From Microbacterium terricola (GTDB lineage Bacteria; Actinomycetota; Actinomycetes; Actinomycetales; Microbacteriaceae): a DNA stretch of 64,000 nt. Both the position numbers and the translations under genes were made by a program. The number at the start of each line of letters is the position of its first letter. Within the stretch, counting starts at the first letter, position 1. Below, piece by piece: positions 1 to 30,748 of the stretch. The notes beneath the pieces were generated by a model, which worked only from the letters and a program-made list of their open reading frames with translations, was not told where the DNA came from and ran no database searches. The stretch is from NCBI RefSeq assembly GCF_027943945.1, contig NZ_AP027141.1, positions 1,736,001-1,800,000 on the forward strand, written 5' to 3'.

Positions 1-1049
1 TCGGAGGAGGGACGGTGTCCGGCCCGCATGCCACCGCAACCGGGCATCCCCTCGTCGCCGCCGACGACGACGAGGGGCCGGTCTCGGCCCACGTCCTGAA
101 CGGCGAGCAGTCGAACACCTCGCTCATCGCACCGGCCACCGCGTCGCGCCCCGCCGTGATCTGCAAGATCTTCCGCCAGGTGAATCAGGGCCGCAACCCG
201 GACATCGAGCTGCAGACGGCACTCGCGGGTGCGGGTTCTCCGCACATCGCGCCGGCGGTCGGCTGGGTCGAGGGGACGTGGCTCGACCCCGGTGCCGCGC
301 AGCAGACGGTCGGCGGGTCACTGGCGTTCGCGCAGCGGTTCTTCTCGGGAGTCGAGGATGCGTGGCGGGTAGCCCTCCGCGCTGCGGCGGACGGGACGCC
401 GTTCGACCGGGAGGCCCACGCCCTGGGACGCGCAACCGCGGACGTGCATCTCTCGCTCGCGCACCTGTTCCCCACCCGGCCCGCCGAGCCCCGCGACGTC
501 GACGGGTTCGCCGAGACCTGGCGCCGCCGGCTCTCCATCGCCCTCGCCGAGGTCCCCGCGATCGCCGAGCGGCGCACCGCGATCGAGGCGGTGTACGCGC
601 GCGCATCCTCCGCCCGGCCGACGCTGCAGCGCATCCACGGCGACTACCACCTCGGCCAGGTGCTGCACACCGAGAACGGCTGGGTGCTCCTCGACTTCGA
701 GGGCGAGCCGATGCGGCCGATCCGCGAGCGGGTGCGCCCCGATGCCGCGCTCCGCGACGTCGCCGGGATGCTGCGCTCGTTCGATTACGTCGCCGGCTCG
801 ATCCGGCTCGACGACCCCGCGAGACCGGCCGCCGCAGTGCGTGCCTGGGTCGACGCGGCGCGGGCCGCCTTCCTCGCGGGCTATGCCGAAGCCACCGGCG
901 ACCCGCTCGATGCCGACGACCCGCTGCTGGCGGCTCTGGAGCTCGACAAGGCCGTGTACGAGGCGATCTACGAAGCGCGCAACCGGCCCACGTGGGTCAC
1001 GATCCCGCTGCGGGCGATCGGACGCCTCGCGGCCACCCACCCGGCGTGA
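1..1049 (+). CDS. mak: Maltokinase, 5' end cut by window edge
   Basis: Maltokinases phosphorylate maltose to maltose 1-phosphate with ATP, feeding the GlgE alpha-glucan pathway from trehalose via TreS. About 345 residues are visible. The segment GEQSNTS near base 107, the catalytic loop HGDYHLGQVL near base 636 and the metal-binding DFEGEP near base 695 are typical of the Mak/Pep2 aminoglycoside-kinase-like fold. A GTG at 15 with GGAGGAGG before it could be read as a start, but the frame is open to base 3 and family members are about 450 residues with an N-terminal cap domain, so I read this as a truncated gene whose start lies upstream. It converges on the next gene with a 12-base gap. The function rests on motifs; the substrate is inferred. 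Confidence 0.85.
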   Translation, partial: GGGTVSGPHATATGHPLVAADDDEGPVSAHVLNGEQSNTSLIAPATASRPAVICKIFRQVNQGRNPDIELQTALAGAGSPHIAPAVGWVEGTWLDPGAAQQTVGGSLAFAQRFFSGVEDAWRVALRAAADGTPFDREAHALGRATADVHLSLAHLFPTRPAEPRDVDGFAETWRRRLSIALAEVPAIAERRTAIEAVYARASSARPTLQRIHGDYHLGQVLHTENGWVLLDFEGEPMRPIRERVRPDAALRDVAGMLRSFDYVAGSIRLDDPARPAAAVRAWVDAARAAFLAGYAEATGDPLDADDPLLAALELDKAVYEAIYEARNRPTWVTIPLRAIGRLAATHPA

Positions 1050-15339: not shown

Positions 15340-15340
15340 C

Positions 15341-15691
15341 ATGGCGGGCGCCTACCTCATCGCGATCCTGCTCTCCTTCGCGGGGATGCTGGTGCTCGAC
15401 CTTCGGCTCGACCTCATCGCCCGCCGCTCCCCCGCCCGCACCGCCGTCGCCGTCGCCGTCGGCACGCTCGTCCTGCTCGTGTGGGACCTGACCGGCATCG
15501 CCGCGGGCATCTTCGTGCGCGGCGACAGCCCGCTGTTCGTCGGCGTGGACCTCGCCCCGCACCTTCCGCTGGAGGAGCCGGTGTTCCTGGCGTTCCTCTG
15601 CTACCTGGCGCTGGTGCTGTGGGCGGGGGCGGAGCGCCTCCGCGCCCGCCGGGAGAAGCAGGTCGCCGTCCGAGAGGAGACTGCGCCGTGA
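15341..15691 (+). CDS. crtYe: C50 carotenoid cyclase subunit CrtYe
   Basis: A 116-residue protein with three membrane helices, one half of the heterodimeric cyclase that closes the rings of C50 carotenoids (CrtYe/CrtYf, LbtA/LbtB). The conserved PxEE motif appears as LPLEEPVF near residue 78, after WDLTGIAAGIF. It sits between crtI and crtYf; the stop overlaps the crtYf GTG. Which ring type is formed (epsilon as in decaprenoxanthin, gamma as in sarcinaxanthin, beta as in C.p.450) cannot be read from sequence alone. Confidence 0.9.
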   Translation: MAGAYLIAILLSFAGMLVLDLRLDLIARRSPARTAVAVAVGTLVLLVWDLTGIAAGIFVRGDSPLFVGVDLAPHLPLEEPVFLAFLCYLALVLWAGAERLRARREKQVAVREETAP

Positions 15692-15990
15692 GCTATCCCC
15701 TGCTCGTCCTCCCCTTCCTCGCGCTGACGCTGGCGGCCACGGTCGCCACGGCACGGCGTCCCCGGTTCGGGCAGCGGATGATCTCGTCCGCGCTCGCGGC
15801 CATCGCACTGATGCTCCTCACCGCCGTGTTCGACAACCTGATGATCGCCGCCGACCTGTACTCGTACCCTGCGGAGCACCTGTCCGGGCTCCGCGTGGGA
15901 GCGGCTCCGCTCGAGGACTTCGCGTACCCCCTCTGCGCGGCCTTCCTCGTGCCGGCCGTCTGGACGCTGACCGAGCGGAAGCGCGCATGA
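15688..15990 (+). CDS. crtYf: C50 carotenoid cyclase subunit CrtYf
   Basis: A 100-residue, three-helix membrane protein, the partner of CrtYe. The PxED signature appears as PLEDFAYP near residue 75, the equivalent of PLEEP in the partner. The start GTG 15688 overlaps the crtYe stop (GTGA), which fits equal synthesis of two subunits of one complex. The stop overlaps the crtEb start. Confidence 0.89.
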   Translation: MSYPLLVLPFLALTLAATVATARRPRFGQRMISSALAAIALMLLTAVFDNLMIAADLYSYPAEHLSGLRVGAAPLEDFAYPLCAAFLVPAVWTLTERKRA

Positions 15991-16886
15991 CCCCCCGCGC
16001 CCTGAGGGCCGCCCGCGTCCAGCGCGTCGCACGCTCCCTCCTCATCGCCTCGCGGCCGGTGAGCTGGATCAACACCGCCTACCCGTTCGCCGCCGCCTAC
16101 CTCCTCACCACCCGCCAGGTCGACCTGACCCTGATCGTCGGCACCCTCTTCTTCCTGGTCCCCTACAACCTCGCGATGTACGGCATCAACGACGTGTTCG
16201 ACTACGAGTCCGACATCCGCAACCCCCGCAAGGGCGGTGCGCACGGCGCCGTCCTCGAGCCCGCCCTGCACCCCACCACTTTCTGGGCGGCAGGGCTGCT
16301 GAGCCTGCCGTTCGTCGCGTACCTGGTGCTGGTGGGGACGCCGGTCTCCTGGCTCGTCCTTGCCCTCAGCCTCTTCTTCGTCGTCGCCTACTCGGCGCCG
16401 CCCCTGCGGCTCAAGGAGGTGCCGTTCGCCGATTCGGCGACCAGCAGCATCCACTTCTTCTCGCCGGCCGTCTACGGCCTCGTGCTGGCGGGCGCGACAT
16501 GGACCTGGCAGCTCGCGGCGATCGTCGGCGCGTTCGCGCTCTGGGGCATCGCCTCGCACGCCTTCGGGGCGGTGCAGGACGTGGCTGCCGACCGTGCGGC
16601 CGGCATCGCCTCCATCGCGACGGCGCGCGGCGCGCGCTGGACGGTGTGGTTCGCCCTCGGCTGCTACGCCGCGGCCGGGCTCGCGATGCTCTTCACGACC
16701 TGGCCTGGCCCGCTCGCGGCCCTCGTCGCCCTGCTGTACATCGGCAACGTGTGGCCGTACCGGGATGTCGACGACGCGACGGCGACGCGAGCGACAGCAG
16801 GCTGGGGTCGCTTCCTCTGGATCAACCAGATCGCCGGCTTTGCCGTGACGGTGCTGCTGATCTGGTACGCGATCGCGACGGCGTGA
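15987..16886 (+). CDS. crtEb: Lycopene elongase (UbiA prenyltransferase)
   Basis: A 299-residue UbiA-family membrane prenyltransferase that adds two C5 units from DMAPP to lycopene, giving a C50 chain such as flavuxanthin before cyclisation. The first Asp-rich motif is NDVFDYESD near residue 71 and the second QDVAADRAAG near residue 193, both on the cytosolic face; about eight hydrophobic helices. Last gene of the operon, overlapping crtYf by 4 bases. Its presence with paired small cyclases marks the end product as a C50 rather than C40 carotenoid. Confidence 0.94.
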   Translation: MTPRALRAARVQRVARSLLIASRPVSWINTAYPFAAAYLLTTRQVDLTLIVGTLFFLVPYNLAMYGINDVFDYESDIRNPRKGGAHGAVLEPALHPTTFWAAGLLSLPFVAYLVLVGTPVSWLVLALSLFFVVAYSAPPLRLKEVPFADSATSSIHFFSPAVYGLVLAGATWTWQLAAIVGAFALWGIASHAFGAVQDVAADRAAGIASIATARGARWTVWFALGCYAAAGLAMLFTTWPGPLAALVALLYIGNVWPYRDVDDATATRATAGWGRFLWINQIAGFAVTVLLIWYAIATA

Positions 16887-16897
16887 TCCGCATCCCC

Positions 16898-16956
16898 GGC
16901 TGAACAGCCACCGGGCTGAACAGCCATCGGACTGAACAGCCCCCGGCTGATCAGCC
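16898..16956. repeat. Four palindromic 16-bp repeats after the crt operon
   Basis: CTGAACAGCC starts at 16900, 16916 and 16932, followed by CTGATCAGCC at 16947. With flanking GG the units read GGCTGAACAGCC, a near palindrome; the fourth, GGCTGATCAGCC, is a perfect 12-bp palindrome. The last two units merge with the terminator. Confidence 0.8.
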
Positions 16957-16971: not shown

Positions 16972-19875
16972 CTACTGGCCGTCCAGCTCGATCAGCCGGT
17001 TGACCGCCGCGGTCAGCCTCTTGTCGGCCTCGCCGTACGCTGCCCAGTCGCCGTCCTGCAGCGCCGCCTCGCGGTCCAGCATGGCGTCCTGCGCCTCGGC
17101 CAGCGCCTCCTGGTAGTCGTCGTCGTTCGGCGCCGGCGTCGGCTCGGTCGTCTCGGAGGGAGCCGGCGTGGGCGCGGTCGGCACGGGCGACGGTGTCACA
17201 TCCGCGTCGCCGCCGGTGGCACCGGCGTCGCCGCCGAACAGCGTGTCGAGCGCCTCGCTCAGCGTGTCCTCGAAGGCGACGTCGTTTCCGAACGAGACCA
17301 GCACCTTCTGCAGGGTCGGGAGCTTGGTGGCGCCCGAGGACTGCACGAAGACCGGCTGCACGTAGAGCAGTCCACCGCCGACGGGCAGCGTCAGGAGGTT
17401 GCCGTTGAGCACATCCGATTGCCCCTGCTTGAGGATGTTGATGAACGCGGAGACCTGCGGGTCGGCGTCGAAGGTGTTCTGCACCTGCCCGGGACCGGGC
17501 ACCGTCGTGTCGGCGTCGATCACCAGCATCCGGAGCTTGCCGTAGTCCGCGGCCTTCTTGCCGCTCGCGGCCCCCGCATCCGAGTCGACAGCCAGGTAGC
17601 CCATCAGCACGTTGCGCGCATTGGCGCCGAGCGACGACGGGATGAAGGACGTGAACATCGAGTACGACGCTTCGTCCTGTCCGGGCATCTTCATCGTCAG
17701 GTAGTAGGGCGGCTGCAGGTTCGACTCGTCCTGCGGGTCGTTCGGGGTCGTCCACGCGTTGTCGCGCTGGTAGAACGACTGCGCATCGTCGACGTGGTAC
17801 ACGCCGAGCATCGCGCGCTGCACCTTGAACAGGTCTGTCGGGTAGCGCACGTGGCTGATCAGGTCGCCGGACATCTCGCTGATCGGCTCGACCGTGGACG
17901 GGTAGACCTTCTGCCAGGCCTGGAGGATCGGGTCCTCCTCGTCCCAGGCGTAGAGCGTGACGGAGCCGTCGTACGCGTCGACGGTGGCCTTGACCGAGTT
18001 GCGGATGTAGTTGATGTCATCCAGCGCGAACCGCTGCGGCGTCGTGCTCGAGTCCGAGATCGCCGTCTGCAGGCTGACCGTGCTCGAGTACGGGTAGTTC
18101 GCGCTCAGGGTGTAGCCGTCGACGATCCAGACGATCCGTCCGTCCACCACGCTCGGGTACGGGTCGCTGTCCAGCGTCAGGTACGGCGCGACCTTCTGGA
18201 CACGGTCCTTGGGGTTGCGGTCGTAGAGGATCTGCGAGTCCTCGTTGAGGTAGTCCGAGAACAGGATCTGCTCCGACTGGAACTTCAGGGCGTAGACGAG
18301 ACGGTTGAAGACGCCGCCGACGCTCGGCCCGCCGTCACCCGTGAAGGTGGTCTTCGTCTCGTTCGCGCCGTCCGGTCCGGTCGGGTAGTCCAGCTCGATG
18401 TCGCTCGCGCCCTCGGGTGCGCCGACGATGGAATACGGCGGCGAGTACTCGCCGAAGTACACCCGCGGCTCGAAGTTCTCGCGATCGGAGAGGAAGCCGG
18501 ATGCGGGGATGCCCTGCTCGAGGAAGACGGGGTCGCCGTCGCTCGTGCGATCGTTGCCCTTCGCCGCGACGATGCCGTAGCCGTGGGTGTAGACGAGCGC
18601 CGAGTTCTGCCAGTCGGCGGCCTGCCCGAGCTGCTCGAGGTTGAGCTCGCGCACCGAGACGAGGGTGTCCTGCGATTCGCCGTCGATCTGGTACCGGTCG
18701 ACGTCGAGCGGGTCCTGGAACTGGTAGTACGAGCGGTACTGCTCGAGCTGACGCACGGTCGGCGAGATGATCGCCGGGTCCATGATGCGGATCTGCGCGG
18801 TGGTGTCGGCGTCAGAGCGCAGCTGACCGGCCTCCGCAGCGGTCTCGGCGGCGAAGTTGCTCTTCTCGAGCCCGTCGATGCCGTACGCGACCTGGGTCAT
18901 GTCGACGTTGCGCTGGTAGTACTCCTCCTCCAGGGAGAAGCGGTTCGGCTGCACCTGGAAGGTGTTCACCACCCACGGGTAGCCGACGCCGAGCACGATC
19001 GAGGAGACCACCAGCACCGCCGTGGCGATGAGCGGGTACCGCCACCGGCCGATGATGGCGGTGACGAAGAACAGGACGGCCACGATGGCGGCGGCGATCG
19101 CGAGGATCGTCAGGCCGGGGATCACGGCGTGGACGGTCGTGTAGCCGGCGCCGGTGATGCGGTCCTCCGGCTGGTTCAGCGTCTTGTAGCGGTCGAGCCA
19201 GAGGCTCACACCCTGAACGGCGAGGTAGAGGCCGGCGAGGACGGCGAGCTGGATCCGGGCGGACTTGGAGATCCGCAGCTCGCGCTCACCGACCCGCACC
19301 GATCCGTACAGGTACGACACGACGGCGGTCACCAGGATGCAGATGAGCAGCACGGCCGAGACGAAGCCGAGCAGGGTGCTGTAGAACGGCAGCGCGAAGA
19401 GATAGAAGCCGGTGTCGAGCCCGAACTCGGGATCGACGGTGTCGGTCGCGACGCCGTTGAACCACAGCCAGGTGGTCTGCCACTGCGCGGACGCGGCGAA
19501 GCCGGCGAAGAACCCGAAGAAGACGGGGATGCCCCACATCGCCAGACGGCGGAGCGGCTCGACGACCTCCTGGTACCGGTCGAGCTGCGAGCTCAGCCGT
19601 GCATAGACGGGTCGCAGGCGGTACGCGAGCTGGATGGTCAGCCACACCGGCACCGCCATGCCGAGGAAGCCGACCACGAACATGACGACGCGCGCCGTCC
19701 ATTGGGTCAGCAGCACCGAGTCGAACCCGAGCTGCTCGAACCACAGCCAGTCGGCGTAGAGGCCCACGAAGGCGAAGAACGCCACGACGAGGGCGGCGAT
19801 GATCGCCAGGGAGATGGCGATGACGCGGCGGGAGCGAGGCGGTGTGGCCTGTGTCGGCGCAGAGGTCGTGGTCAC
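16972..19875 (-). CDS. UPF0182 family membrane protein
   Basis: A 967-residue protein with seven hydrophobic helices in the first 330 residues (AIIAALVVAFFAFVGLYADW is the first, shown only up to that point) and a large extracytoplasmic domain in the rest. The C-terminal 90 residues are a Pro/Thr/Glu linker and an acidic helical tail with DREAALQDGDWAAYGEAD. UPF0182 is conserved across actinobacteria (Rv3193c in M. tuberculosis, from memory), function unknown. GTG 19875 has TAGGAT 6 bases upstream, so the mRNA is probably leaderless. The upstream same-strand gene is a YlbL-like protease, the same order as in mycobacteria. Confidence 0.9.
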   Translation of the reverse strand: MTTTSAPTQATPPRSRRVIAISLAIIAALVVAFFAFVGLYADWLWFEQLGFDSVLLTQWTARVVMFVVGFLGMAVPVWLTIQLAYRLRPVYARLSSQLDRYQEVVEPLRRLAMWGIPVFFGFFAGFAASAQWQTTWLWFNGVATDTVDPEFGLDTGFYLFALPFYSTLLGFVSAVLLICILVTAVVSYLYGSVRVGERELRISKSARIQLAVLAGLYLAVQGVSLWLDRYKTLNQPEDRITGAGYTTVHAVIPGLTILAIAAAIVAVLFFVTAIIGRWRYPLIATAVLVVSSIVLGVGYPWVVNTFQVQPNRFSLEEEYYQRNVDMTQVAYGIDGLEKSNFAAETAAEAGQLRSDADTTAQIRIMDPAIISPTVRQLEQYRSYYQFQDPLDVDRYQIDGESQDTLVSVRELNLEQLGQAADWQNSALVYTHGYGIVAAKGNDRTSDGDPVFLEQGIPASGFLSDRENFEPRVYFGEYSPPYSIVGAPEGASDIELDYPTGPDGANETKTTFTGDGGPSVGGVFNRLVYALKFQSEQILFSDYLNEDSQILYDRNPKDRVQKVAPYLTLDSDPYPSVVDGRIVWIVDGYTLSANYPYSSTVSLQTAISDSSTTPQRFALDDINYIRNSVKATVDAYDGSVTLYAWDEEDPILQAWQKVYPSTVEPISEMSGDLISHVRYPTDLFKVQRAMLGVYHVDDAQSFYQRDNAWTTPNDPQDESNLQPPYYLTMKMPGQDEASYSMFTSFIPSSLGANARNVLMGYLAVDSDAGAASGKKAADYGKLRMLVIDADTTVPGPGQVQNTFDADPQVSAFINILKQGQSDVLNGNLLTLPVGGGLLYVQPVFVQSSGATKLPTLQKVLVSFGNDVAFEDTLSEALDTLFGGDAGATGGDADVTPSPVPTAPTPAPSETTEPTPAPNDDDYQEALAEAQDAMLDREAALQDGDWAAYGEADKRLTAAVNRLIELDGQ

Positions 19876-19913: not shown

Positions 19914-21035
19914 TCACGAGCCGCAGGTCGGCAGCGCGTCGAGATCGCCGTCCTCCCGGATGGCCTCCAGTGCGGCCAGCGAATCGTCGAGGGTCTCGAC
20001 CGAGAACACGCGCAGTCCGTCCGGCACGTGCCCGACGACCTCGTCGCAGTTCGACTCCGGCGCGAGGAACCAGCTCGCGCCGGCGTCCTTCGCGCCCCAC
20101 AGCTTCTGCTGGATGCCGCCGATCGGGCCGACGGTGCCGTCCGCGGTGATCGTGCCGGTGCCGGCGACGGTCTCCCCCGCATTGAGCTCGCCGGGGGTGA
20201 GCACGTCGATGATGCCGAGGGCGAACATCATCCCGGCGCTCGGTCCGCCGACGTTGTTCAACTGGATCGTCACGTCGATCGGGAAGTCGAAGTCGCTCAT
20301 CAGCGTGACTCCGAGCAGCCACGTCTTCTCGCCGTCGACCTCGGTCTCCTTCGGCACGATCGAGATCGTCTGGTCCTCACCGTCGCGCACGATGCTGAGC
20401 TCGACCGCCGCGCCGTCGCCCTCGTTGACGATGTCGCGGAGCGCACCGGCATCCGTCGCCGGAGTCCCGTTCGCCGCCAGGATGATGTCGCCCTCTTCGA
20501 GCTGACCCTCCGCGGCGGAGTCCTCGACGACCGAGTAGACCGTCAGCATCGCGTTCACGTCGTAGCCGAGCTCGCTGAGGGCGGCCGCGGTCGCCTCCTT
20601 CTGCGAGTCGACCATCAGCGCCGCGCTCTCCTCGTTGCGCTCCTCCGTGGTCTGCCCCTCCGGGAACACGGAATCGATCGGCAGCACGGCCTTACTCTGG
20701 TCGAACCAGGCGAGGGCGAGCTCGAACCACGAGGGGGTGCGCTCGCGGTTGCCGACGACCTGCACGGTGAGCAGGTCCAGTGCGCCCGCCGTCTCGTACG
20801 TGTCCGCGCCCTCGACCGAGATCAGCGGGACGTCCTCGCCGTCCGCGTTCTCGACCGAACCGAGGGTGTTGTACACCGGCCCGGGCTGCTGGATCACGTA
20901 GGACGTCGGCAGGAACGTGAGCACCAGGAGCACCACCAGGGCGACCACCAGGGCCCAGATGCCGACAGTCGTGCTGCGGGAGGGACGCCGCCGGGGGGCG
21001 GGCGCGATGGTCACGTTGTCGTCGAACAGCGCCAC
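19914..21035 (-). CDS. PDZ and Lon-like protease, YlbL family
   Basis: A 373-residue membrane-anchored protease. One helix near residues 25-45 (VGIWALVVALVVLLVLTF) anchors an external part; a PDZ domain lies near residues 155-225 (AAEGQLEEGDIILAANGTPA); the C-terminal Lon-type Ser/Lys protease domain has GGPSAGMMFALG with the nucleophile Ser and GGIQQKLWGAKDAG with the catalytic Lys. In Bacillus the YlbL homologue acts in cell-division checkpoint proteolysis (family knowledge); targets here are unknown. The start is GTG 21035 with AAAGG upstream. The gene pair with UPF0182 is conserved in order in mycobacteria (Rv3194c-Rv3193c, from memory). Confidence 0.9.
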   Translation of the reverse strand: MALFDDNVTIAPAPRRRPSRSTTVGIWALVVALVVLLVLTFLPTSYVIQQPGPVYNTLGSVENADGEDVPLISVEGADTYETAGALDLLTVQVVGNRERTPSWFELALAWFDQSKAVLPIDSVFPEGQTTEERNEESAALMVDSQKEATAAALSELGYDVNAMLTVYSVVEDSAAEGQLEEGDIILAANGTPATDAGALRDIVNEGDGAAVELSIVRDGEDQTISIVPKETEVDGEKTWLLGVTLMSDFDFPIDVTIQLNNVGGPSAGMMFALGIIDVLTPGELNAGETVAGTGTITADGTVGPIGGIQQKLWGAKDAGASWFLAPESNCDEVVGHVPDGLRVFSVETLDDSLAALEAIREDGDLDALPTCGS

Positions 21036-21161: not shown

Positions 21162-22601
21162 GTGGCAGACGACGACCGGAGCCCCGAAGACGAATTCCAG
21201 GAGCTCATCCGGCAGCTTTTCGGCGGTGAGGGCGGACAGCTCGACCCCGAGCAGCTCTCACAGCTGGCGGGCATGAACATCGATCCCGCGATGATGCAGG
21301 CGCTCATGCGGCAGCTGCAGGGCGCCTTCGCGTCGGGCGGCGACGAGGGCGGCATCTCCTGGGACCTGGCGCAGCGCCAGGCGCTGCACATCGCGAACCA
21401 GGACGGCCTCGGCATCACCGACGGCCAGCGCACCGACCTCGAGCAGGCGTTCTCGCTCGCGACGCTGTGGCTCAGCGAGGCCACGACGATCTCGGAGCTG
21501 GCGACCGCCCCGCGCGCCATGACCCGCGGCGCCTGGGTCGAGGCGACGCTGCCGGTCTGGCAGCAGCTCGCCGAACCCGTGGCCACGAGCATCGCCGACG
21601 CCCTCACGGGTGCCCTCAGCGAGCAGGCGCCCGAGGAGATGCAGGGGCTCGTCCAGGGCGCGCGGCGCTTCATGCGCACCGTCGGCGGGTCCCTGTTCGC
21701 CACCCAGCTCGGTCACGTCGTGGGCAACCTGTCGAAGGAGGTCGTCTCCGGCGGCGACGTCGGCATCCCGCTGATGCCCGACGGCGAGGCGGCCATCCTG
21801 CCGCAGAACTTCGCCGACTTCGGACGCGACCTCGAGATCCCCGACGATCAGCTGGCGCTGTACATCGCGACGCGCGAGCTGGCGCACGCCCGCCTGTTCC
21901 GGCACGCTCGCTGGCTGCGCCTGCACGTCATCTCGCAGGTGACGGACTTCGCGCGCGGCATCCGCGTCGACACGAGCGCCCTCGAGGAGCTCGCCAGCAG
22001 GTTCGACCCCAGCGAGCCGGAGGAGCTGCGCCGGGCGCTGGAGAGCGGCGCTCTGCTGCCCGCCCGCACCGATGAGCAGGAGACCGCGCTCGTCCGGCTG
22101 GAGAACCTGCTCGCGACCATCGAGGGCTGGGTCGACGTGGTCACCGCGCAGGCCACCGGCCGGCTGCCGATGGCCGACCGGATCGCGGAGGCCGTCCGCC
22201 GACGCCGTGCGGTCGGCGGTCCCGCCGAGCAGGCGCTGGCCTCGCTCGTCGGCCTCACCCTGCGACCGCGGCGGATGCGGGAGGCTGCCGCGATGTGGCA
22301 GGCGGTGACGGACGCGGTCGGCGTCGGCGCGCGCGACGCGCTGTGGGACTACCCCGACCTCATGCCGACCGCCGAGGACATCGACGATCCCGCCGCGCTC
22401 GTCGCGCGGCTGGAGGCCAGGGCGCGCGGCGAGGAGCCGGCCCCCGACGAGATGGACGACGCGCTCGCGCGTCTGCTCGCGGGCGAGGAGCCCCGGGCCG
22501 GCGAAGAGACCGGTGCGGCAGACGTGACCGGAGACGAGACCGGAGACGAGGCCGGCGACGAGAGCGGCGACGAGGGCACCGACCAGCCGCGCCCGGTGTA
22601 A
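21162..22601 (+). CDS. DUF2342 zinc-metalloprotease-like protein
   Basis: A 479-residue cytosolic protein of the DUF2342 family, often labelled coenzyme-F420-associated or zinc-dependent metalloprotease. The conserved centre is LYIATRELAHARLFRHARW (about residue 230) and LRRALESGALLP. The classical HExxH is not present; instead RELAHARLFRHARWLRLH supplies His residues, so protease activity is unproven. The N-terminus is Gln/Leu-rich and the last 40 residues form a Gly-Asp-Glu repeat (TGDETGDEAGDESGDEG). GTG 21162 is the likely start. It matches Rv3195 in the mycobacterial order and is followed by the TOMM-like gene. Confidence 0.83.
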   Translation: MADDDRSPEDEFQELIRQLFGGEGGQLDPEQLSQLAGMNIDPAMMQALMRQLQGAFASGGDEGGISWDLAQRQALHIANQDGLGITDGQRTDLEQAFSLATLWLSEATTISELATAPRAMTRGAWVEATLPVWQQLAEPVATSIADALTGALSEQAPEEMQGLVQGARRFMRTVGGSLFATQLGHVVGNLSKEVVSGGDVGIPLMPDGEAAILPQNFADFGRDLEIPDDQLALYIATRELAHARLFRHARWLRLHVISQVTDFARGIRVDTSALEELASRFDPSEPEELRRALESGALLPARTDEQETALVRLENLLATIEGWVDVVTAQATGRLPMADRIAEAVRRRRAVGGPAEQALASLVGLTLRPRRMREAAAMWQAVTDAVGVGARDALWDYPDLMPTAEDIDDPAALVARLEARARGEEPAPDEMDDALARLLAGEEPRAGEETGAADVTGDETGDEAGDESGDEGTDQPRPV

Positions 22602-22693: not shown

Positions 22694-23545
22694 ATGCTCC
22701 GACTCGATCCAGGTCACCCTCCGCTGTGGCGGACGGCGACCTCGCTGCAGTTCGGACTCGACCCCGTCGCCGTCGTCGAGGCTCCGGAGCCCTGGCAGGA
22801 GCGGCTCGTCCACGAACTCGCGCGCGGCGTGCCCGAGGGCGCCCTCGACCAGATCGCCGAGCTGCTCGGCGCCCCGACCGGTGCCGCGGCGGAGCTGGTG
22901 CGGATGCTGAGACCGGCCCTCGTCGGGCCGGTCCCCCGCCCGCCGGTCGCCGAGCTCCGGGTGCCCGACGGATTCCCGCGCGCACAGGCCTCGGTGTTCG
23001 AGCGCGCCCTGTCGGCGACGCACTGCGAGGTGCGGGTGCGGCGCGCCGGCCGTCCGGCCACGGCCGTCCCGCACCGGACTGTCGTGCTGCTCGCGCACCA
23101 CCTCGTGGTGCCGCGGGCCGCCGCCGATCTGATGGCGCGTGACATCGCGCATCTTCCCGTCGTGTTCGAGGGAGCCCGCACGGTGGTCGGCCCGCTCGTC
23201 GTCCCTGGCCGGACGGCGTGTCTGGCGTGCCAGGCCGCCGCTCAGCGCGACCGCGACCCGGCATGGCCCCTCGTCGCCGCCCAGCTGGTCGGGCGCGCGC
23301 CGCTCGACGTCGACGACGCGACGCTCTGGGATGCGGGCCTCACCGCGGGCAGGCTGCTCAGCGCGGTGCGGGCGGGCGCTGACTCGATCTCGGTGGTGCT
23401 GCACGCCGGCTCCCTGCAGCGGACGCACCTGCGCCACCAGCCGCACGAAGGGTGTCTGTGCCGATCTCCTGGAGGAAGCGGGAGCGCTGCCGATCACGGT
23501 GGCCGCGCGCCCACGACAGGTGCAGCGTCCGGCCCGCCCGCGTGA
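22694..23545 (+). CDS. Orphan TOMM cyclodehydratase/leader-binding-like protein
   Basis: A 283-residue protein resembling the C-protein (E1-like, RiPP leader-binding) half of TOMM azoline cyclodehydratases. The N-terminal 90 residues look like a peptide-clamp winged helix (LDPGHPPLWRTATSLQFGLD at the start). The conserved centre is GPLVVPGRTACLACQ with the first Cys pair, and RDRDPAWPLVAAQL. The second pair is HEGCLC near residue 255; together CxxC and CxC would bind a structural zinc. No YcaO, dehydrogenase or short precursor gene lies nearby. I think it matches Rv3196 by position. The start ATG 22694 has GATGAT 6 bases upstream. Everything after HEGCLC, 28 residues, is read from the antisense of uvrD2 and is probably non-conserved. 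Function unknown. Confidence 0.75.
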   Translation: MLRLDPGHPPLWRTATSLQFGLDPVAVVEAPEPWQERLVHELARGVPEGALDQIAELLGAPTGAAAELVRMLRPALVGPVPRPPVAELRVPDGFPRAQASVFERALSATHCEVRVRRAGRPATAVPHRTVVLLAHHLVVPRAAADLMARDIAHLPVVFEGARTVVGPLVVPGRTACLACQAAAQRDRDPAWPLVAAQLVGRAPLDVDDATLWDAGLTAGRLLSAVRAGADSISVVLHAGSLQRTHLRHQPHEGCLCRSPGGSGSAADHGGRAPTTGAASGPPA

Positions 23546-25133
23546 TGCCGACGTAGGCGAGCCGGCGCTCCTCGTCGACGTGCTCGAACGTCGTCGCGTA
23601 GCCGATCGGCAGCTGGCCCTCCGCGACCCCCACGAGGTAGACGTGATCCCACTCCAGGCCCTTTGCGGCGTGGAGCGTCGCCAGCGTCACGGTGCGCAGC
23701 GTCGGCTCGTCCTGCGACTTGGCGCGCGTGAGCAGCTCGTCGGCGAAGGTGCGCAGCGTGGTGCCGTCCGGCGCCTCCTCGGCCAGCCGCAGCAGGGCCG
23801 CGCGGGCCTCCCAGGCGTCGCGCAGCGCGCCGCCCGCCTGCGGCGCCTCGTCCGTGTAGCCGAGGGAGCGCAGGACATCGCGGACCGCGTCGAGGAAACC
23901 GCGCTCGGTCGGGGCGACCGCGGCGCCGCGCAGCGCGAGCACCGCCTGGCGCACCTCCGGCACATCGAAGAACCGTCGGCCGCCGAGCACGGTGGTCGCC
24001 ACGCCCTTGCCCGCCAGCGCCGTGGTCAGCTCGGCCGACTGCGCGTGCGCGCGGTAGAGCACGGCGATCCGCTGCGGATCGGTGCCGGCCGCGATGCGCG
24101 CCGCGATGTGCGCGGCGACGCCGCGCGCCTCGTCCAGGTCGTCGTCGTAGGCGCTGACCGTCGGCAGCTCGCCGTCGCCTGAGCGGTGCGTGTTCGCGGA
24201 CGGCGCGGGCGCCGCGGTCAGCTCGAGGGCACCCGGCCGGTTGCGCATGAGCGCGTTCGCGACGGCGAGGATCGACGCATCCGACCGGTAGTTCGTCTCC
24301 AGCCGCACCACGGTGGCGTCGGCGTGCCGGTGCGGGAACTCGAGCAGGAAGCGCGCGTCGGCGCCCGCGAACGAGTACACGGTCTGACTGGCGTCACCCA
24401 CGACGCACAGATCGCGGCGGTCGCCGAGCCACAGTTCGAGCAGGCGGTTCTGCAGCGGAGAGACGTCCTGGAACTCGTCGACGGTGAAGTGGCGGTACTG
24501 CTCGTGGACCGCCTTCGCGACGTGGGGCTCGGCCTCCAGCATCCCCGCGCACGCCAGCAGCACGTCCTCGAAGTCGAGCTGACGGCGCTCGTCCTTGAGC
24601 TTCTCGTAGGCACGGTGGAGATCTGCCACCCGGTTCGCGTCGTACCGGCCGACACCGCCGGGGCGGGCGGCCACGTAGTCCTCGATGCTGCGCATCGTGA
24701 CCTTGCGCCATTCGATGCCCGACGCGATGTCCCGCAGCGTGGCCGTGTCGGGCTCGAGCCCGATGCCGTCGGCGGCATGGGCGAGCAGCCGCACCTTGTT
24801 GTCGACGATGGACGGTGCGGTGTCGCCCGCGAGCGTGGGCCAGAAGAAGTTCAGCTGCGCGAGGGCGGCGGCGTGGAACGTGCGCGCGGCGACACCCTCG
24901 ACACCGAGCGCGCGGAGGCGACCGCGCATCTCGCCCGCAGCCTTCGAGGTGAACGTCACCGCCATGACACGCCCCGGCGAGTAGGCGCCGGTGTCGACGC
25001 CGTGGGCGATCCGGTGGGTGATCACGCGGGTCTTGCCCGTGCCGGCACCTGCGAGCACGGCGACCGGACCGCGCAGCGCCGATGCCGCCTCGCGCTGGCG
25101 CTCGTCCAGCCCTTCCAGTGCGCGACCGATCAT
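23358..25133 (-). CDS. uvrD2: Superfamily 1 DNA helicase UvrD2
   Basis: A 591-residue 3'-5' DNA helicase. Motif I VLAGAGTGKT, Ia VTFTSKAAGEM, II VDEFQDVS, III VGDASQTVYSF, IV VRLETNYRS, V TLHAAKGLEW and VI YVGITRAGR are all present in order. The family's C-terminal HRDC domain and the tetracysteine hinge known from mycobacterial UvrD2 (about 700 residues) are missing; after QRSRFLQEIG only a 34-residue Ala/Arg/Ser-rich tail follows, encoded antisense to the end of the TOMM-like gene. It overlaps the upstream nudC stop by 4 bases (ATGA), so the two form an operon. Role: DNA repair and replication-fork maintenance. Confidence 0.93.
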   Translation of the reverse strand: MIGRALEGLDERQREAASALRGPVAVLAGAGTGKTRVITHRIAHGVDTGAYSPGRVMAVTFTSKAAGEMRGRLRALGVEGVAARTFHAAALAQLNFFWPTLAGDTAPSIVDNKVRLLAHAADGIGLEPDTATLRDIASGIEWRKVTMRSIEDYVAARPGGVGRYDANRVADLHRAYEKLKDERRQLDFEDVLLACAGMLEAEPHVAKAVHEQYRHFTVDEFQDVSPLQNRLLELWLGDRRDLCVVGDASQTVYSFAGADARFLLEFPHRHADATVVRLETNYRSDASILAVANALMRNRPGALELTAAPAPSANTHRSGDGELPTVSAYDDDLDEARGVAAHIAARIAAGTDPQRIAVLYRAHAQSAELTTALAGKGVATTVLGGRRFFDVPEVRQAVLALRGAAVAPTERGFLDAVRDVLRSLGYTDEAPQAGGALRDAWEARAALLRLAEEAPDGTTLRTFADELLTRAKSQDEPTLRTVTLATLHAAKGLEWDHVYLVGVAEGQLPIGYATTFEHVDEERRLAYVGITRAGRTLHLSWARGHRDRQRSRFLQEIGTDTLRAAGGAGASAAGSRRAAPPRSSQRPPAPR

Positions 25134-26023
25134 GCGCGCCCCTCGTACCAGTCGGTGATCAGCCGGTGCGCGATCGACGCGGTTCCCGGGAGGGTGACCT
25201 CGCCCTCGCCGCGAAGGCCCGCCCCGACCTCGTCACGGGTGAACCAGCGCACCGCGGCGATCTCCTCGCCGTCCGCCTCCGCGGCGGCGTCGTCGGCAGC
25301 GGCGGCCCAGAAGCCGAGCATCAGCGATCGCGGGTACGGCCACGCCTGCGATCCGCGGTAGACGATGTCGAGCGCGTCGACGCCCGCTTCCTCGTGCACC
25401 TCGCGCCGCACCGCCTCCTCGAGCGACTCGCCCGCTTCGACGAAGCCCGCGAAGCAGGAATAGCGATCGGCGCCCCAGAGCGCGTTCGAGCCGAGCAGCA
25501 GACGGTCGGGGTCCGTCGCGCTCGTGATCGCCACGATGACGGCGGGGTCGGTGCGCGGGAAGTGGTCGCGCCCGCAGGCCGGGCAGTGGCGGGCCCAGCC
25601 GGCCATGGTGGTCTCGGTGAGCGTTCCGCAGGCGGAGCAGTACGGCGCGTCCAGCAGCCAGCGCCCGAGGCTGAGTGCGGCCACGAAGGCGCCGGCATCC
25701 GCCGCGGTCAGCGTTCCGCCGATCGCGCGCAGGCTCGCCCACTCCCCGGGGAAGGTGACGTCGTCGGTTGCGGCGACCACCGCGGCCAGCAGTGCCTCTC
25801 CGTCTGCGGCGCGCCCGAGGAAGGCCCACTGCGCGTCGGCGGGCGCCTGCGCCGGTTCCACCCACCGCAGCCCTTCGCCGGAGACGGGCGCTCTGTCACC
25901 CACGATCACGAGGACACGGCTGGCTGCGTCGAGCCGCAGCGTGTCGAGGAGTCCGGGGGTCGCGCGCTCGTCGGCGGCGCGGTCGAGGCCGATCTGGATC
26001 GGCCGATCGGCGGATGCGGGCAT
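25130..26023 (-). CDS. nudC: NADH pyrophosphatase / RNA decapping hydrolase
   Basis: A 297-residue NudC-type Nudix enzyme that splits NAD(H) into NMN(H) and AMP and removes NAD caps from RNA 5' ends. The zinc ribbon is CSACGT and CPACGRD near residues 140-165; the Nudix box is GFVEAGESLEEAVRREVHEE; the NAD-specific SQPWPFPxS motif reads SQAWPYPRS here (Pro to Ala, Phe to Tyr). ATG 26023 has AGGAAGG before it; the longer frame to 26131 would overlap the divergent gene's start and lacks a ribosome site. In operon with uvrD2. Confidence 0.93.
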   Translation of the reverse strand: MPASADRPIQIGLDRAADERATPGLLDTLRLDAASRVLVIVGDRAPVSGEGLRWVEPAQAPADAQWAFLGRAADGEALLAAVVAATDDVTFPGEWASLRAIGGTLTAADAGAFVAALSLGRWLLDAPYCSACGTLTETTMAGWARHCPACGRDHFPRTDPAVIVAITSATDPDRLLLGSNALWGADRYSCFAGFVEAGESLEEAVRREVHEEAGVDALDIVYRGSQAWPYPRSLMLGFWAAAADDAAAEADGEEIAAVRWFTRDEVGAGLRGEGEVTLPGTASIAHRLITDWYEGRA

Positions 26024-26106
26024 CGCGGGGGCCTTCCTGCGTGGATCGACGAACGGGCCTGTCGACAAGCCGGGCGTGGCGCGGGGACGCACCGGCGTGC
26101 CGCGCC

Positions 26107-26112
26107 TACCCT
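26107..26112 (+). promoter_or_regulatory. -10 box of leaderless phosphotransferase-like gene
   Basis: TACCCT, 6 bases before ATG 26119. It supports that start over the much longer open frame upstream. Confidence 0.5.
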
Positions 26113-26118
26113 GGGCAC

Positions 26119-27453
26119 ATGGCACGCTCACCCCTCACTCTAGCCGCGTCGGTGACTTCGGCTCTGCCCCGGGTCGGCGTCGTCGGGGCGGGAAACCTGA
26201 CCGAGTCGGCCACCGGCCGCTACGACGCGGCAGTGGTGCAGCTCGACGACGGACGACGCGTCGTCGTGCGGGTCCCCGCGGCGCCCGACGCCGCCTCGGA
26301 CGCCGCCTCCGACCTCGCGGCTGAGGCGCGCGCGCTGCGCGCGCTGACTCCCGGCGTGCGCGGCCTGCTGCCGTTCCGCGCGCCCGAGGTGCTCGGCGAG
26401 ACGAGCCTCGACGGCGCCCGCGCCGTCGTCGTCGACTACCTCCCCGGCTACCGGGTCGACGCCGCACACCTGCCGCCGGGTGAGGGTGTCGCGACCTCGA
26501 TCGGCGACGCGCTGGGCGCGCTGCACAGCCTTCCGCTGTCGATCGTGCGCACCGAGGGCCTCCCCTCGCGCACCCCCGAGCAGGTGCGCGACGACGTCCG
26601 GCGGACGATCGACCGGGCCTCGGAGACGCATGTCGCCCCGATCTCGCTGATCGCTCGGTGGACCAGGGCGGTCGAGAACGACGAGCTGTGGCGCTTCGAG
26701 TCCGCGGTGGTCCTCGGCGGCGCGGCCGCCGCATCCTTCCTGCTCGAGGACGTCGACGACATCCCGCAGGTGACCGGCGCGCTGGACTGGTCGGGATTGT
26801 CAGTCGGCGACCCCGCCACCGACCTGCAGTGGCTCGCCGCCGCGCCGGCCGCCGCCGACGACGTGTTCGCCGCGTATGTGCGTCGCAGCGGTCGCGCGCC
26901 CGACGCACTGCTGCGCGATCGCGCGCGCCTGTACGCCGAGCTCGAGTTCGCGAAGTGGCTGGTGCACGGACACGACGCCGACCGCGCCGACATCGTCGAC
27001 GACGCCGCCGCGCTGCTGCTGTCGCTGGCGGAGACCACGTCGGGTGAGGACATCGTCACGGATGCCGAGCTCGGCGTCGATGACGCGATCGCCCTCCTCG
27101 ACCGCGTGCCCGCAGCCGGCACCGCCGCCGGCACGCTCGCCGACATGTCGATGCAGACCGACACCTACGGTGCGGACGAGCTCTCGCTCTGGGACGAGGA
27201 GAACGAGGGCAGGACGGATGCGGCTGCCGACCCGTCCGACCAGACCCAGCCCGTCGCTCCCCTGGATCTCGGTTCGTTCGAGCCGCAGCCGACGGTCCCG
27301 CCGCTCGGCGTCGCCCCCATGGAGACCCTCGACGGACCGATGGCGCAGCGCGACGACGCGGACTCGGGACCGCTGGAGTGGGCCGACACGCAGGCGCAGG
27401 CGGAGAACTCGCGCGCCGCCGACGCCGCGCTGCGGCGGTGGCTCGCGCGCTGA
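26119..27453 (+). CDS. APH-fold phosphotransferase with lost catalytic loop
   Basis: A 444-residue protein of the aminoglycoside/macrolide phosphotransferase fold. The N-lobe (VVQLDDGRRVVVRVPAA), linker (VVVDYLPGYRVD) and C-lobe (GDALGALHSLP; GALDWSGLSVGDPATDLQWL, the DxD-type metal loop) are recognisable. Where active members have HGDlxxxN, this one reads VLGGAAAASF: the catalytic Asp is Gly and the Asn is Ser, so phosphotransfer is doubtful. The last 120 residues are acidic and low complexity. It takes the position held by an ion channel gene (Rv3200c) in mycobacteria, in opposite orientation to adnB and nudC. It ends 4 bases before the adnB stop. A regulatory pseudokinase is possible. Confidence 0.75.
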   Translation: MARSPLTLAASVTSALPRVGVVGAGNLTESATGRYDAAVVQLDDGRRVVVRVPAAPDAASDAASDLAAEARALRALTPGVRGLLPFRAPEVLGETSLDGARAVVVDYLPGYRVDAAHLPPGEGVATSIGDALGALHSLPLSIVRTEGLPSRTPEQVRDDVRRTIDRASETHVAPISLIARWTRAVENDELWRFESAVVLGGAAAASFLLEDVDDIPQVTGALDWSGLSVGDPATDLQWLAAAPAAADDVFAAYVRRSGRAPDALLRDRARLYAELEFAKWLVHGHDADRADIVDDAAALLLSLAETTSGEDIVTDAELGVDDAIALLDRVPAAGTAAGTLADMSMQTDTYGADELSLWDEENEGRTDAAADPSDQTQPVAPLDLGSFEPQPTVPPLGVAPMETLDGPMAQRDDADSGPLEWADTQAQAENSRAADAALRRWLAR

Positions 27454-27457
27454 CCGC

Positions 27458-30400
27458 TCAGGCCCGCAGGACCAGATCGGCAGCGAGGTAGTAGAGCACG
27501 ACGTCGATCGACTCCTTCGGCACGCCGTGGCGTCGGTGGTAGGCCTCGCGGTACAGCTCGAGCTGCAGCATCCGCTCGTCCTTCTCCGCGTCCGTGCGCG
27601 GGGCGGCGCCGGTCTTCCAGTCGACGATCTCGATGCGGTCGCCACGGCGGTACACCGCGTCGAGCTTGCAGATGATCACGTGCGGGCGGCCGTCGAGGTC
27701 GGTCGTGGTGAAGTCGATCTCGGTCTCGACCTCGAGGGGCTGCAGAGCGGCCCACTCCGAGCGCTCGAAGGTGTCGCGGAGAGCCTGCAGGGCGACGGCA
27801 TCGGCGGCCGATGAGGTGGAGGCGTCATCGGCGTCGGACTCCCAGAGCGCGTCGTCGAGCGAACCGGCCGCGCCGACGAGACCCGAGCGCTGCTCGACCC
27901 AGGCGTGGAACAGCGTGCCCAGCCGCGTCTGCCGGTACGGGCGCTCCGGCAGGGGGCGAGCGATGCGGGCGACGGTGCCGGCGTAGTCGGCGGCGAAGTC
28001 CTTGTAGCGCGACGCCGCGATGCGAGTGGGCGCGACCGCGGCCGTGCGCGTGTGGCGGGCGTCGCGCTCGGCGAGCAGCAGCACGAGATCATCGTCGGGG
28101 TGAGCACGGTCGGCGCCGACAGCGGCGTCGACGGCGGCTGCGGCCGCCTCGACCGTGGTGCGCCGTGCGCCGAGGGGGTCGATCGGCCAGGTGAGCATGC
28201 GGCGGTCGCCGAGGTAGGGGTTATCGCCCGGATCGTCGGAGGGCAGCTCGACGTCGAGAGCCTCGGCGATCTCGACGGCGAACACGCTGCGCTCCCTGGG
28301 CTTCTTGGTGCCCGACCAGCTCGATCCGCTCAGCAGCAGGTGGTCGCGGGCCCGGGTCACGGCGACGTACGCGAGCCGACGGTCCTCGTCGAGCTGACGC
28401 CCTCGATTCGCCTCGACGAAGGCGTCCAGCGCGCTCTTGAGCGCCTGCTGGGTCGGGCTCGCATGGGCGTCCCAGGCGAACACGGGCAGCCAGGAGGCGT
28501 CGCCGCGGAAGGCGTAGGGCAGCACGCCGAATCCGAGCCACCCCTTCGTGTCTCGCGGGGCGCTGGGCAGCTCGTCCTTGACCAGACGGACCACGGCCAC
28601 CGCATCCCATTCGAGGCCCTTCGAGCCGTGGATCGTCAGGAGCTGGACGACGTCGGGCTCGGGCGGCTCGGTGCGCGGCGCGAATTCGTCGAGCTGCTCG
28701 GCGTGGTCGAGCCAGGCGAGCAGGTTGGCGACGGACCCGCTCTCGTCGGCGGCGAGGAAGCCGTGCAGCTCGTCCACGAAGGCGCGCAGCTGCGCCGTGG
28801 CGATGCGCGCAGGTCCGCGCACGTCGTTGGCGGCGAGTTCGATGTCGAGCCGCAGCTCGAGCTCAATGAGCCGTACCAGCTCGGGCACCGGGATGCCGAC
28901 CGCGCGACGCAGGCCGGCGAACACGGCTCCCGCCTCGCGGAGGCGCTCTACGGCGCTCGGCGTGAAGGCGCTGAGCCATCCGTGATCGGGCCGGGTACGG
29001 GCCACGAAGTCGAGGGCGTCGATGAGCGAGCCCTGATCATCGCCCGCGCTGCCGCGGATCTGCTCGACGACCTCCGGGGCGAGCGGCTGGAGCGCCGCGT
29101 CGTGCCGGGCGAGGCGCCGGGCGAGCGCCGCGAGCTCGCGCATGTCGGGCAAGCCGATGGCCCAGCGGGGTCCGGTGAGCAGCCGGATCAGCGCGGAGCC
29201 GGCCGTCGGGTCGCTGATCACCCGCATCGCCGCGACCACGTCGACCACCTCGGGTGTCGACAGGAGTCCGCCGAGACCCAGGATGCGGTGCGGGATGCCG
29301 CGGCGACCGAGCGCGTCGCCGAAGCGGACCATGTGCTTCTTGCTGCGGAACAGCACGGCGCCGGTCGTCGAGCGCCCTGCCCGGGCGCGCGTCGCCCTCA
29401 CCTCGTGGAACCACTCGGCCACCCGCTCGGTCTCGGCGTCGAGGTCGGCGTCGAAGGAGAGCTCGACCGCGCCGGCCGGAGCCGCCGGGCGCGGGCGCAG
29501 CCCCTGCACGTCGACGGGCGCCCTGGCCGCAAGCGGTGCGAGCACCGCATTCGCGGCGGTGAGCACCTGCGCGCTGTTGCGCCAGCTCGTCAGCAGCGAG
29601 AACTGCGCGCAGGGCGCGTCCGGCGAGAAGGCCGCGGCGAATCCGCCCAGGTTGCCTGCGCTCGCGCCGCGCCAGCCGTAGATCGCCTGGTGCGGGTCGC
29701 CGACAGCCATCACGGCCGTCTCGGCGAAGAGGGCGGACAGCAGATCGGTCTGCACGACGGAGGTGTCCTGATACTCGTCGAGCAGGACGACCCGGTAGCG
29801 TGCCCGCAGCTCGGCGGCTGCCGCCGGGTGGTCGCGCACGACCTCGACGGCGCCGGCCACCTGGTCGGAGAAGTCCAGCACTCCCCTGCGCCGCTTCTGC
29901 ACCGCGTACTCGCGGGCGAGGTCGGCAAGCAGGCCGAGCCCGGAGACCTCGCGCTCGGCGGTGACGACGTCGGCGTAGACCGTGACCGTCTTGCGCTCGG
30001 ACGGGCGGTCGAGGACGCTGCGGAAGCCGTCGGGGAACGCGGCGAGATCGTCCAGCGAGACGAGGTTGTCGACGCCGTCGCGGGCGATGCGCAGGGCGGC
30101 GTCGACGATCGTGCCGAGCGCCTTGTCGCGCTCCTCGAGGCGGGGATCGTCCGAGGCGAAGATGACCTGGCGCATGAGGAGCCAGGCGGCCGACTCGCTG
30201 AGCACCACCGCCTCGGCGTCGCGGCCGATCCGCACCGCGTGCTCGCGCACGATCTGATCGGCGAAGCTGTTGTACGTGGCCACCGTCGGCCGATGCAGCA
30301 TCGCGTCGGCGTCGGCGGGCACGGGCTCGGCACCGGTCGCCGCCACCAGAGCGTCCAGCGCGCTCGTGCGCGTCGACCCCGGACGCTCGCCGCGTTCGAT

Positions 30401-30748
30401 CTCGCCGAACAGCGCCAGACGGCCCTCGGCGTGCAGCGCGGGCAGGTGCGGCAGCAGTCCGCGGCGCTCGAACTCGGCGAGCCGATCGAGCCGTGCCCTG
30501 ATCCGCTCGGCGAGCTCCCCCGCCGCCTTGCGCGTGAAGGTCAGACCCAGGACCTCGTCGCGGCCGACGATCCCGTTGGCCACCAGCCACACCACGCGCG
30601 CCGCCATCGTCTCGGTCTTGCCGCTGCCCGCGCCCGCCACGACGAGCGCCGGCGTGAGGGGCGCCTCGATCACCGCCGTCTGCTCTGCGGTGGGCGGGAA
30701 CTGCCCCAGCGCCGCCGAGATCGCGGCGGCTGTCAGCATCCCCGTCAC
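27458..30748 (-). CDS. adnB: AdnB subunit of AdnAB helicase-nuclease
   Basis: A 1096-residue motor-nuclease subunit of the actinobacterial double-strand-break resecting machine. The UvrD-like motor has VAGAGSGKTETM (motif I), LLDEYQDTS (II), AVGDPHQAIYGWRG (III), TIHGSKGLEWD (V) and YVAVTRARDH (VI). The C-terminal RecB-type nuclease shows RLGTLFHAWVEQR with the H, CKLDAVYRR and VDWKTGAAP as D and D-x-K, then QLELYREAY. GTG 30748 overlaps the adnA stop (GTGA), coupling the pair. AdnB is the dominant motor in the mycobacterial enzyme (family knowledge). With AdnA it loads at DNA ends and degrades or resects them for recombination. Confidence 0.94.
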   Translation of the reverse strand: MTGMLTAAAISAALGQFPPTAEQTAVIEAPLTPALVVAGAGSGKTETMAARVVWLVANGIVGRDEVLGLTFTRKAAGELAERIRARLDRLAEFERRGLLPHLPALHAEGRLALFGEIERGERPGSTRTSALDALVAATGAEPVPADADAMLHRPTVATYNSFADQIVREHAVRIGRDAEAVVLSESAAWLLMRQVIFASDDPRLEERDKALGTIVDAALRIARDGVDNLVSLDDLAAFPDGFRSVLDRPSERKTVTVYADVVTAEREVSGLGLLADLAREYAVQKRRRGVLDFSDQVAGAVEVVRDHPAAAAELRARYRVVLLDEYQDTSVVQTDLLSALFAETAVMAVGDPHQAIYGWRGASAGNLGGFAAAFSPDAPCAQFSLLTSWRNSAQVLTAANAVLAPLAARAPVDVQGLRPRPAAPAGAVELSFDADLDAETERVAEWFHEVRATRARAGRSTTGAVLFRSKKHMVRFGDALGRRGIPHRILGLGGLLSTPEVVDVVAAMRVISDPTAGSALIRLLTGPRWAIGLPDMRELAALARRLARHDAALQPLAPEVVEQIRGSAGDDQGSLIDALDFVARTRPDHGWLSAFTPSAVERLREAGAVFAGLRRAVGIPVPELVRLIELELRLDIELAANDVRGPARIATAQLRAFVDELHGFLAADESGSVANLLAWLDHAEQLDEFAPRTEPPEPDVVQLLTIHGSKGLEWDAVAVVRLVKDELPSAPRDTKGWLGFGVLPYAFRGDASWLPVFAWDAHASPTQQALKSALDAFVEANRGRQLDEDRRLAYVAVTRARDHLLLSGSSWSGTKKPRERSVFAVEIAEALDVELPSDDPGDNPYLGDRRMLTWPIDPLGARRTTVEAAAAAVDAAVGADRAHPDDDLVLLLAERDARHTRTAAVAPTRIAASRYKDFAADYAGTVARIARPLPERPYRQTRLGTLFHAWVEQRSGLVGAAGSLDDALWESDADDASTSSAADAVALQALRDTFERSEWAALQPLEVETEIDFTTTDLDGRPHVIICKLDAVYRRGDRIEIVDWKTGAAPRTDAEKDERMLQLELYREAYHRRHGVPKESIDVVLYYLAADLVLRA

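Follow-up and report, generated by a model that had tools for sequence, protein, structure and literature searches.

LynD, McbB, and MccB are proteins that handle peptides. LynD, together with TruD and MusD, represents the E1/RRE region of the cyclodehydratases for thiazole/oxazole-modified microcins (TOMM; NCBIfam model TIGR03882), where RRE stands for the recognition element of ribosomally synthesized and post-translationally modified peptides (RiPPs), a PqqD-like winged helix. MccB belongs with ThiF and MoeB to the adenylating E1 family (PF00899). Scaffolds of the McbB/TclI type are stand-alone E1-like proteins whose partners are two enzymes, a cyclodehydratase and a dehydrogenase, plus a precursor (as described in PMC10634744). 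The 64,000-nucleotide stretch of the Microbacterium terricola genome analyzed here (NZ_AP027141.1, positions 1,736,001 to 1,800,000; the window) carries, at 22694..23545 on the forward strand, a gene for a 283-aa protein, called the orphan protein below. We judge the chances to be about even that this protein is a pseudo-E1 scaffold, E1-like but catalytically dead and with a winged helix of the RRE type, that it is encoded by a housekeeping gene of the class Actinomycetes, and that it binds a client among the cell's own proteins, with no YcaO.

The orphan protein was examined through its open reading frame (ORF), profile searches, and a predicted structure. The start at 22694 fits the MLRLDP...PPLWR N-terminus common to many of its relatives. 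One CxxC and one CxC were found, at the coordinates given in the preliminary description: the GPLVVPGRTACLAC core (23189..23230) holds C176 (23219-23221) and C179 (23228-23230), and the second pair, C254-x-C256 (23453..23461), lies within PHEGCLC. The structure model was confident (predicted local distance difference test, pLDDT, 90.5). In structural comparison it matched LynD/TruD, McbB, and MccB over residue 1 to about residue 260, which indicates an RRE-like winged helix followed by an E1-like domain. The winged-helix part, residues 1-75 (22694..22918), has three strands and three helices in the model, and its strand and helix order and its alignment from residue 1 are those of RREs. The E1-like domain, residues 78-260 (22925..23473), is also supported by sequence alignment and has lost its nucleotide-binding stretch. 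Two LynD rows aligned 241 and 250 residues of the predicted model within 1..260, with a root-mean-square deviation (rmsd) of 3.7 and 3.5. The model thus has the E1 body with an N-terminal RRE-like winged helix of an RRE-containing E1-like scaffold. The likeness extends to the whole chain for LynD and TruD and to the E1 part for MusD; the GPL.VPG.T.C..C core is shared with the TOMM cyclodehydratases, and the E1 body and the CxxC position with MccB, ThiF, and MoeB.

The Pfam scan of the orphan protein matched no family. TIGR03882, the TOMM precursor leader peptide-binding model, aligned with residues 152-188 (E 2.7e-5), but the 24.5 bits are below its cut-off of 36.9 bits. A protein search scored 7998 candidates and gave 159 proteins at E<=0.001, the orphan itself included. 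Among the best 120 of these 159, a family of about 285 aa came first, followed mostly by proteins of 310-385 aa, which often carry the name bacteriocin biosynthesis cyclodehydratase.

Next to the likeness in fold stands a difference in genetic setting. The preliminary description had found no YcaO within 20 kb; extended to the complete, one-contig genome of 3.25 Mb, the search for YcaO (PF02624) still gave 0 matches. The orphan therefore differs from TOMM cyclodehydratases, RREs of YcaO-based RiPP clusters, and McbB/TclI-type scaffolds in having no YcaO match, fused or elsewhere in its genome. The room for a precursor gene beside it is small: the gap on the upstream side is 92 bp, and on the downstream side the orphan overlaps an antisense gene (no systematic search for small ORFs was made). 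Among 150 Microbacteriaceae genomes the orphan profile was found in 144 and YcaO in 13, all of them within the 144. Across the class, 135 of 148 genomes had the profile and 43 had YcaO: 39 had both, 96 the profile only, 4 YcaO only, and 9 neither. A few of the 135 class matches score weakly and could be genuine TOMM proteins. The genome-wide scan and phyletic comparison that had been proposed thus gave no YcaO match in the own genome, in 137/150 family genomes, and in 105/148 class genomes. In a sample of the phylum, 12 of 13 genomes of the class were positive as against 1 of 136 outside it, and that single match (G252) is borderline and partial.

These counts bear on the reading that the orphan is an ordinary TOMM cyclodehydratase component served by a distant YcaO and precursor. 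The TIGR03882 similarity speaks for it, and some class orthologues exceed the cut-off (2/7 in one scan). It is, however, contradicted by the YcaO counts and by the tree, in which eight E1-like domains from outside the orphan locus, six of them beside YcaO, separated from the locus orthologues with a support of 0.965 (10 outside stretches were fetched, and 2 gave no match). We rejected this reading and regard it as scarcely credible. In one genome without a YcaO match (G408, locus L131) a second, distant E1-like homologue was seen.

Conservation within the class was followed in 60 loci taken from the 135 positive genomes, one to few per family, several of which end at contig ends. C176, C179, C254, and C256 were kept in 60, 59, 60, and 57 of these loci, G166 in all 60, and H251 in 59. 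Each of the four cysteines was present in 32-36 of 36 Microbacteriaceae rows, the window included. The winged-helix residues W12, R13, Q19, and G21 reached at least 90% in alignment A1, and class-wide they were kept in 29, 49, 49, and 56 of the 60 loci. For eight pairs that were close enough, dN/dS was 0.28-0.54, a rough value from ORFs taken stop to stop, with three pairs sharing members; on this rough measure, selection on the orphan gene is purifying but not strong.

The 60 class loci and the window orphan, 61 sequences in all, were also aligned to MccB at the Arg (NLxRQ), Lys, and Asp positions that serve in E1 catalysis. The catalytic Arg of MccB NLTRQ was present in none of the 61, the Lys in 3 at most (34 have Arg and 18 a gap), and the Asp in 5. 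The residues of an adenylating E1 of the ThiF/MoeB/MccB kind were therefore not conserved in this alignment. The nucleotide-binding stretch is absent from the window orphan and, for the most part, from forms like those of L007 and L009. An active E1 with a protein carboxy terminus as its adenylation substrate, like MccB or ThiF, would agree with the E1 fold, with the G-loop kept in most orthologues outside the Microbacteriaceae, and with the PF00899 match in both of two orthologues scanned; given the loss of the Arg, the Lys mostly replaced by Arg or deleted, the rarity of the Asp, and the deleted stretch, we consider it very improbable.

The name under which such proteins are found was also examined. 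Of the 148 class genomes, 51 had a TIGR03882 match above cut-off; 22 of these 51 had no YcaO match, and in 22/22 of those the TIGR03882 match overlapped the orphan-profile match; 11 of the 22 were within the fetched loci, with neighbours visible. Because the model passes its cut-off in 22 genomes without YcaO, the TOMM label is probably wrong for the orphan clade, an over-annotation. Conversely, a TOMM survey that starts from YcaO would miss the orphan (PMC4603692). The authors of RRE-Finder state in a section of PMC7470986 that homologues of RRE-containing proteins occur in non-RiPP contexts, and putative RREs without RiPP enzymes are marked in a section of an RRE paper from 2025 (PMC12710340); those sections of the two papers do not mention the orphan family. 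By title or abstract, the open-access papers searched included none about the orphan protein; the tag Rv3196 occurs in five papers and MSMEG_1937 in one.

The orphan gene lies in a fixed locus, again a difference from TOMM cyclodehydratases. Co-oriented and 92 bp upstream is the gene of a DUF2342/Zincin_2 protein (21162..22601, forward strand), identified by domain scans and locus conservation. Convergent with the orphan is the gene of a helicase of the Pfam UvrD family (23358..25133, reverse strand), which by position we take to be UvrD2; no HRDC match was found in it, and HRDC was present in 5/5 other class UvrD2 proteins scanned. A paper of 2008 calls UvrD2 an essential DNA helicase in its title. 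DUF2342 was found in 53/60 class loci, on the same strand as the orphan in 50, and UvrD2 in 52/60, on the opposite strand in 51; together with NudC these genes make up the conserved block. In the window the NudC-type NAD(+) diphosphatase gene (25130..26131, reverse strand; NCBIfam) follows UvrD2, and a gene for a PDZ-Lon protein, presumably YlbL-type (19914..21035), and a UPF0182 gene (16972..19875), both on the reverse strand and matched by Pfam, lie on the other side; all three recurred in the locus survey. Downstream of the orphan on the same strand, an ABC1 atypical-kinase gene was present in 49/60 class loci, in 44 of them within about 130 bp (measured to the first aligned residue), and some of these genes apparently overlap the orphan by a few bases. 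No ABC1 gene of this type, whose identity comes from Pfam, was found near the orphan in the 35 orphan-holding Microbacteriaceae loci. Loci L007, L026, L033, and L035 are among those with ABC1 downstream, and WhiB accompanies ABC1 in many such loci. The preliminary description had spoken of a DNA-repair neighbourhood, which is half right, as the block also holds PDZ-Lon and zincin-like genes and, outside the Microbacteriaceae, ABC1 kinase and WhiB genes.

The same description had stated that the gene position is kept in mycobacteria. We examined 46 loci with a mycobacterial-type orthologue, 42 titled Mycobacterium or Mycolicibacterium; two of the 46 come from a single contig, as separate pieces. 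Of the neighbours, DUF2342 occurred in 45 loci, ABC1 in 43, WhiB in 40, and UvrD2 in 37, and since they recur, the statement holds; the counterpart is presumably Rv3196. The adjacent ABC1 protein we take to be a relative of MABP-1 and, by position, the presumed Rv3197 orthologue. Rv3197 is reported to have ATPase activity and to confer inducible macrolide resistance (PMC8696161).

Which neighbour might be a partner was approached through covariation, measured as the partial correlation of protein distances among neighbouring genes (27 loci, six genes, 15 pairs). The orphan and UvrD2 gave the highest value of the 15 pairs (+0.61, permutation p 0.001), while DUF2342-orphan gave +0.07 and orphan-ABC1 +0.14. 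When the alignments were trimmed and the gene sets varied, orphan-UvrD2 was +0.52, +0.52, and +0.56 by log (second, first, and second), and by rank it was +0.63 to +0.65, the top pair in 3/3 class sets; the jackknife range was 0.42-0.60. After removal of the overlap region, the same pair in Microbacteriaceae gave +0.50 by log (second) and +0.47 by rank (third). ABC1 often stands between the orphan and UvrD2, and ABC1-UvrD2 was -0.07, and +0.10 and -0.01 in repeats. Adjacency alone explains the orphan-UvrD2 signal poorly, because these values are low and because elsewhere in the class the two genes overlap in only 1/52 loci. The covariation suggestively favours UvrD2 as the partner, which makes UvrD2 the most likely candidate at a tentative level, with DUF2342 or the ABC1 kinase next.

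For ABC1 as the partner, an ancestral operon mate related to UbiB-like atypical kinases, the close downstream position in most class loci and the presence in 43/46 mycobacterial-type loci would be natural. The absence from all 35 Microbacteriaceae loci and the lack of strong covariation (+0.14 to +0.29) are not, and this reading appears improbable.

A somewhat better candidate, still unlikely, is that the orphan serves as a substrate adaptor for the DUF2342 zincin-like protein, the putative metallopeptidase encoded upstream, to which its RRE groove would deliver a client. The shared strand in 50/53 DUF2342-bearing class loci and the 92-bp distance in the window favour it, as does the presence of DUF2342 in all 144 orphan-positive Microbacteriaceae, although 148/150 have it anyway. 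The covariation was weak, at +0.01 to +0.38. DUF2342 was also found in 87 of the 136 genomes sampled from the rest of the phylum, in which the orphan amounts to one borderline match. The DUF2342 gene has another location in G127 and G058 and lies about 10 kb away in G132, yet in all three genomes the orphan remains beside UvrD2 and overlaps it. Most locus-linked DUF2342 proteins (22400-22601 in the window, and loci L001-L100) end in an acidic tail that, by eye, includes a short hydrophobic motif, and this tail was missing in 20/20 unlinked ones (14 outside the class and 6 class paralogues), a distribution in favour of the adaptor. However, L085 and L086 retain the tail although they gave no orphan, and the orphan-holding L056 and L060 are without it. 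Being dissociated from the orphan both ways, the tail is disfavoured as the RRE ligand. In L026 (7934-8599) and L035 (7433-8293) a YgjP-like metallopeptidase gene stands between DUF2342 and the orphan, and a frame similar to it, with HELAHL by eye, fills the orphan slot in L085 (11600-12500).

In the window, the overlap between the orphan and UvrD2 genes covers 188 bp on both strands (23358..23545), that is, orphan residues 222-283 with C254 and C256 against the UvrD2 3' end with ITRAG...LHLSW, which we take to be motif VI. Convergent overlap was seen in 28/35 Microbacteriaceae loci; its length was 2 modulo 3 in 27 of the 28 cases, so that these frames are not codon-aligned, and the one overlap elsewhere in the class was 4 bp. 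A PTTxxAFARPA-like C-terminal tail is conserved in orphan relatives and was considered as a functional motif. It may or may not mirror antisense coding of UvrD2: the overlap is real, but by eye third-codon positions in it were not clearly more constrained than those outside.

Six Microbacteriaceae genomes gave no profile match. In G049 and G119 the slot is filled by a diverged copy scoring 43 and 35 bits, respectively; G015 has a gap of about 39 bp where the orphan is expected, the contig of G099 ends at its position, and G038 and G144 are also without DUF2342. Among the 13 class genomes without a match the slot was inspected in G157, from outside the Microbacteriaceae, where another frame occupies it, metallopeptidase-like by eye with a HELAHL motif. 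Farther off in the window, ORFs at 13231-16903 resemble, by eye, C50-carotenoid genes (phytoene desaturase, a lycopene cyclase pair, and prenyltransferase), and two large UvrD/RecB-type ORFs at 27458-33831, AddAB-like nuclease-helicase by eye, served as synteny markers.

If the orphan is a pseudo-E1 scaffold, its winged helix would hold a peptide segment of the client, as in the E1/RRE part of the TOMM cyclodehydratases, and the E1 body with the four-cysteine site, presumably a zinc site, would form a platform. The client would be a cell protein, with no modifying YcaO taking part. Since most sampled hosts are without the antibiotic pathway, the orphan probably grips an ordinary cell protein.

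Several observations weigh against this scaffold reading. The remaining LynD/TruD and McbB rows had an rmsd of 10.8-13.1 and the MccB rows of 4.8-7.0, meaning a different arrangement of the two parts in those proteins. Outside the Microbacteriaceae the G-loop glycines are mostly retained (the first, G1, in 56/61 aligned sequences), so that nucleotide binding may persist there. G015 and G157 gave no orphan yet retain UvrD2 and DUF2342; therefore neither partner depends on the orphan absolutely. In Microbacteriaceae, DUF2342-UvrD2 was above orphan-UvrD2 by both log and rank. The covariation comes from few, related taxa; because phylogeny does not enter into label permutation and values of +0.4 to +0.6 were also seen for other neighbour pairs, it is a lead. 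Finally, a winged helix can bind DNA instead of peptide. The orphan could accordingly be a nucleic-acid binder, its winged helix acting on DNA or RNA in repair with UvrD2 and its E1 part serving as a structural platform. The covariation with UvrD2 would suit this, and RREs are structural homologues of DNA-binding helix-turn-helix domains (in a passage of PMC7470986). The whole-chain match is, however, to LynD, McbB, and MccB, and we hold a nucleic-acid role to be as improbable as the ABC1 partnership.

Neither of the two outcomes that the preliminary description had named as fatal to its view, the lack of an E1-like or RRE match and a YcaO gene that always co-occurs, was observed. Its suggestion of a housekeeping use for a RiPP-type recognition fold, perhaps on a host protein tail, stands as regards the E1-like and RRE-like fold, the absence of YcaO at home and in most relatives, and the single conserved locus; the one tail examined, at the C-terminus of DUF2342, makes a poor candidate for what would be bound. 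For genome miners, the results give a reason to discount TIGR03882 matches at the orphan locus: a gene of most sampled class members matches, in many, a model named for antibiotic biosynthesis, though most hosts are without YcaO. It is possible, though less likely than not, that a RiPP-type E1/RRE scaffold has served since early in the class Actinomycetes as a housekeeping peptide-recognition subunit that works with UvrD2, or the adjacent ABC1 kinase, and makes no natural product. Such a scaffold would tie RiPP recognition folds to core physiology and offer a partner candidate for UvrD2, and the TOMM scaffolds and the orphan would in that case represent two sister uses of a single peptide-gripping pseudo-E1.
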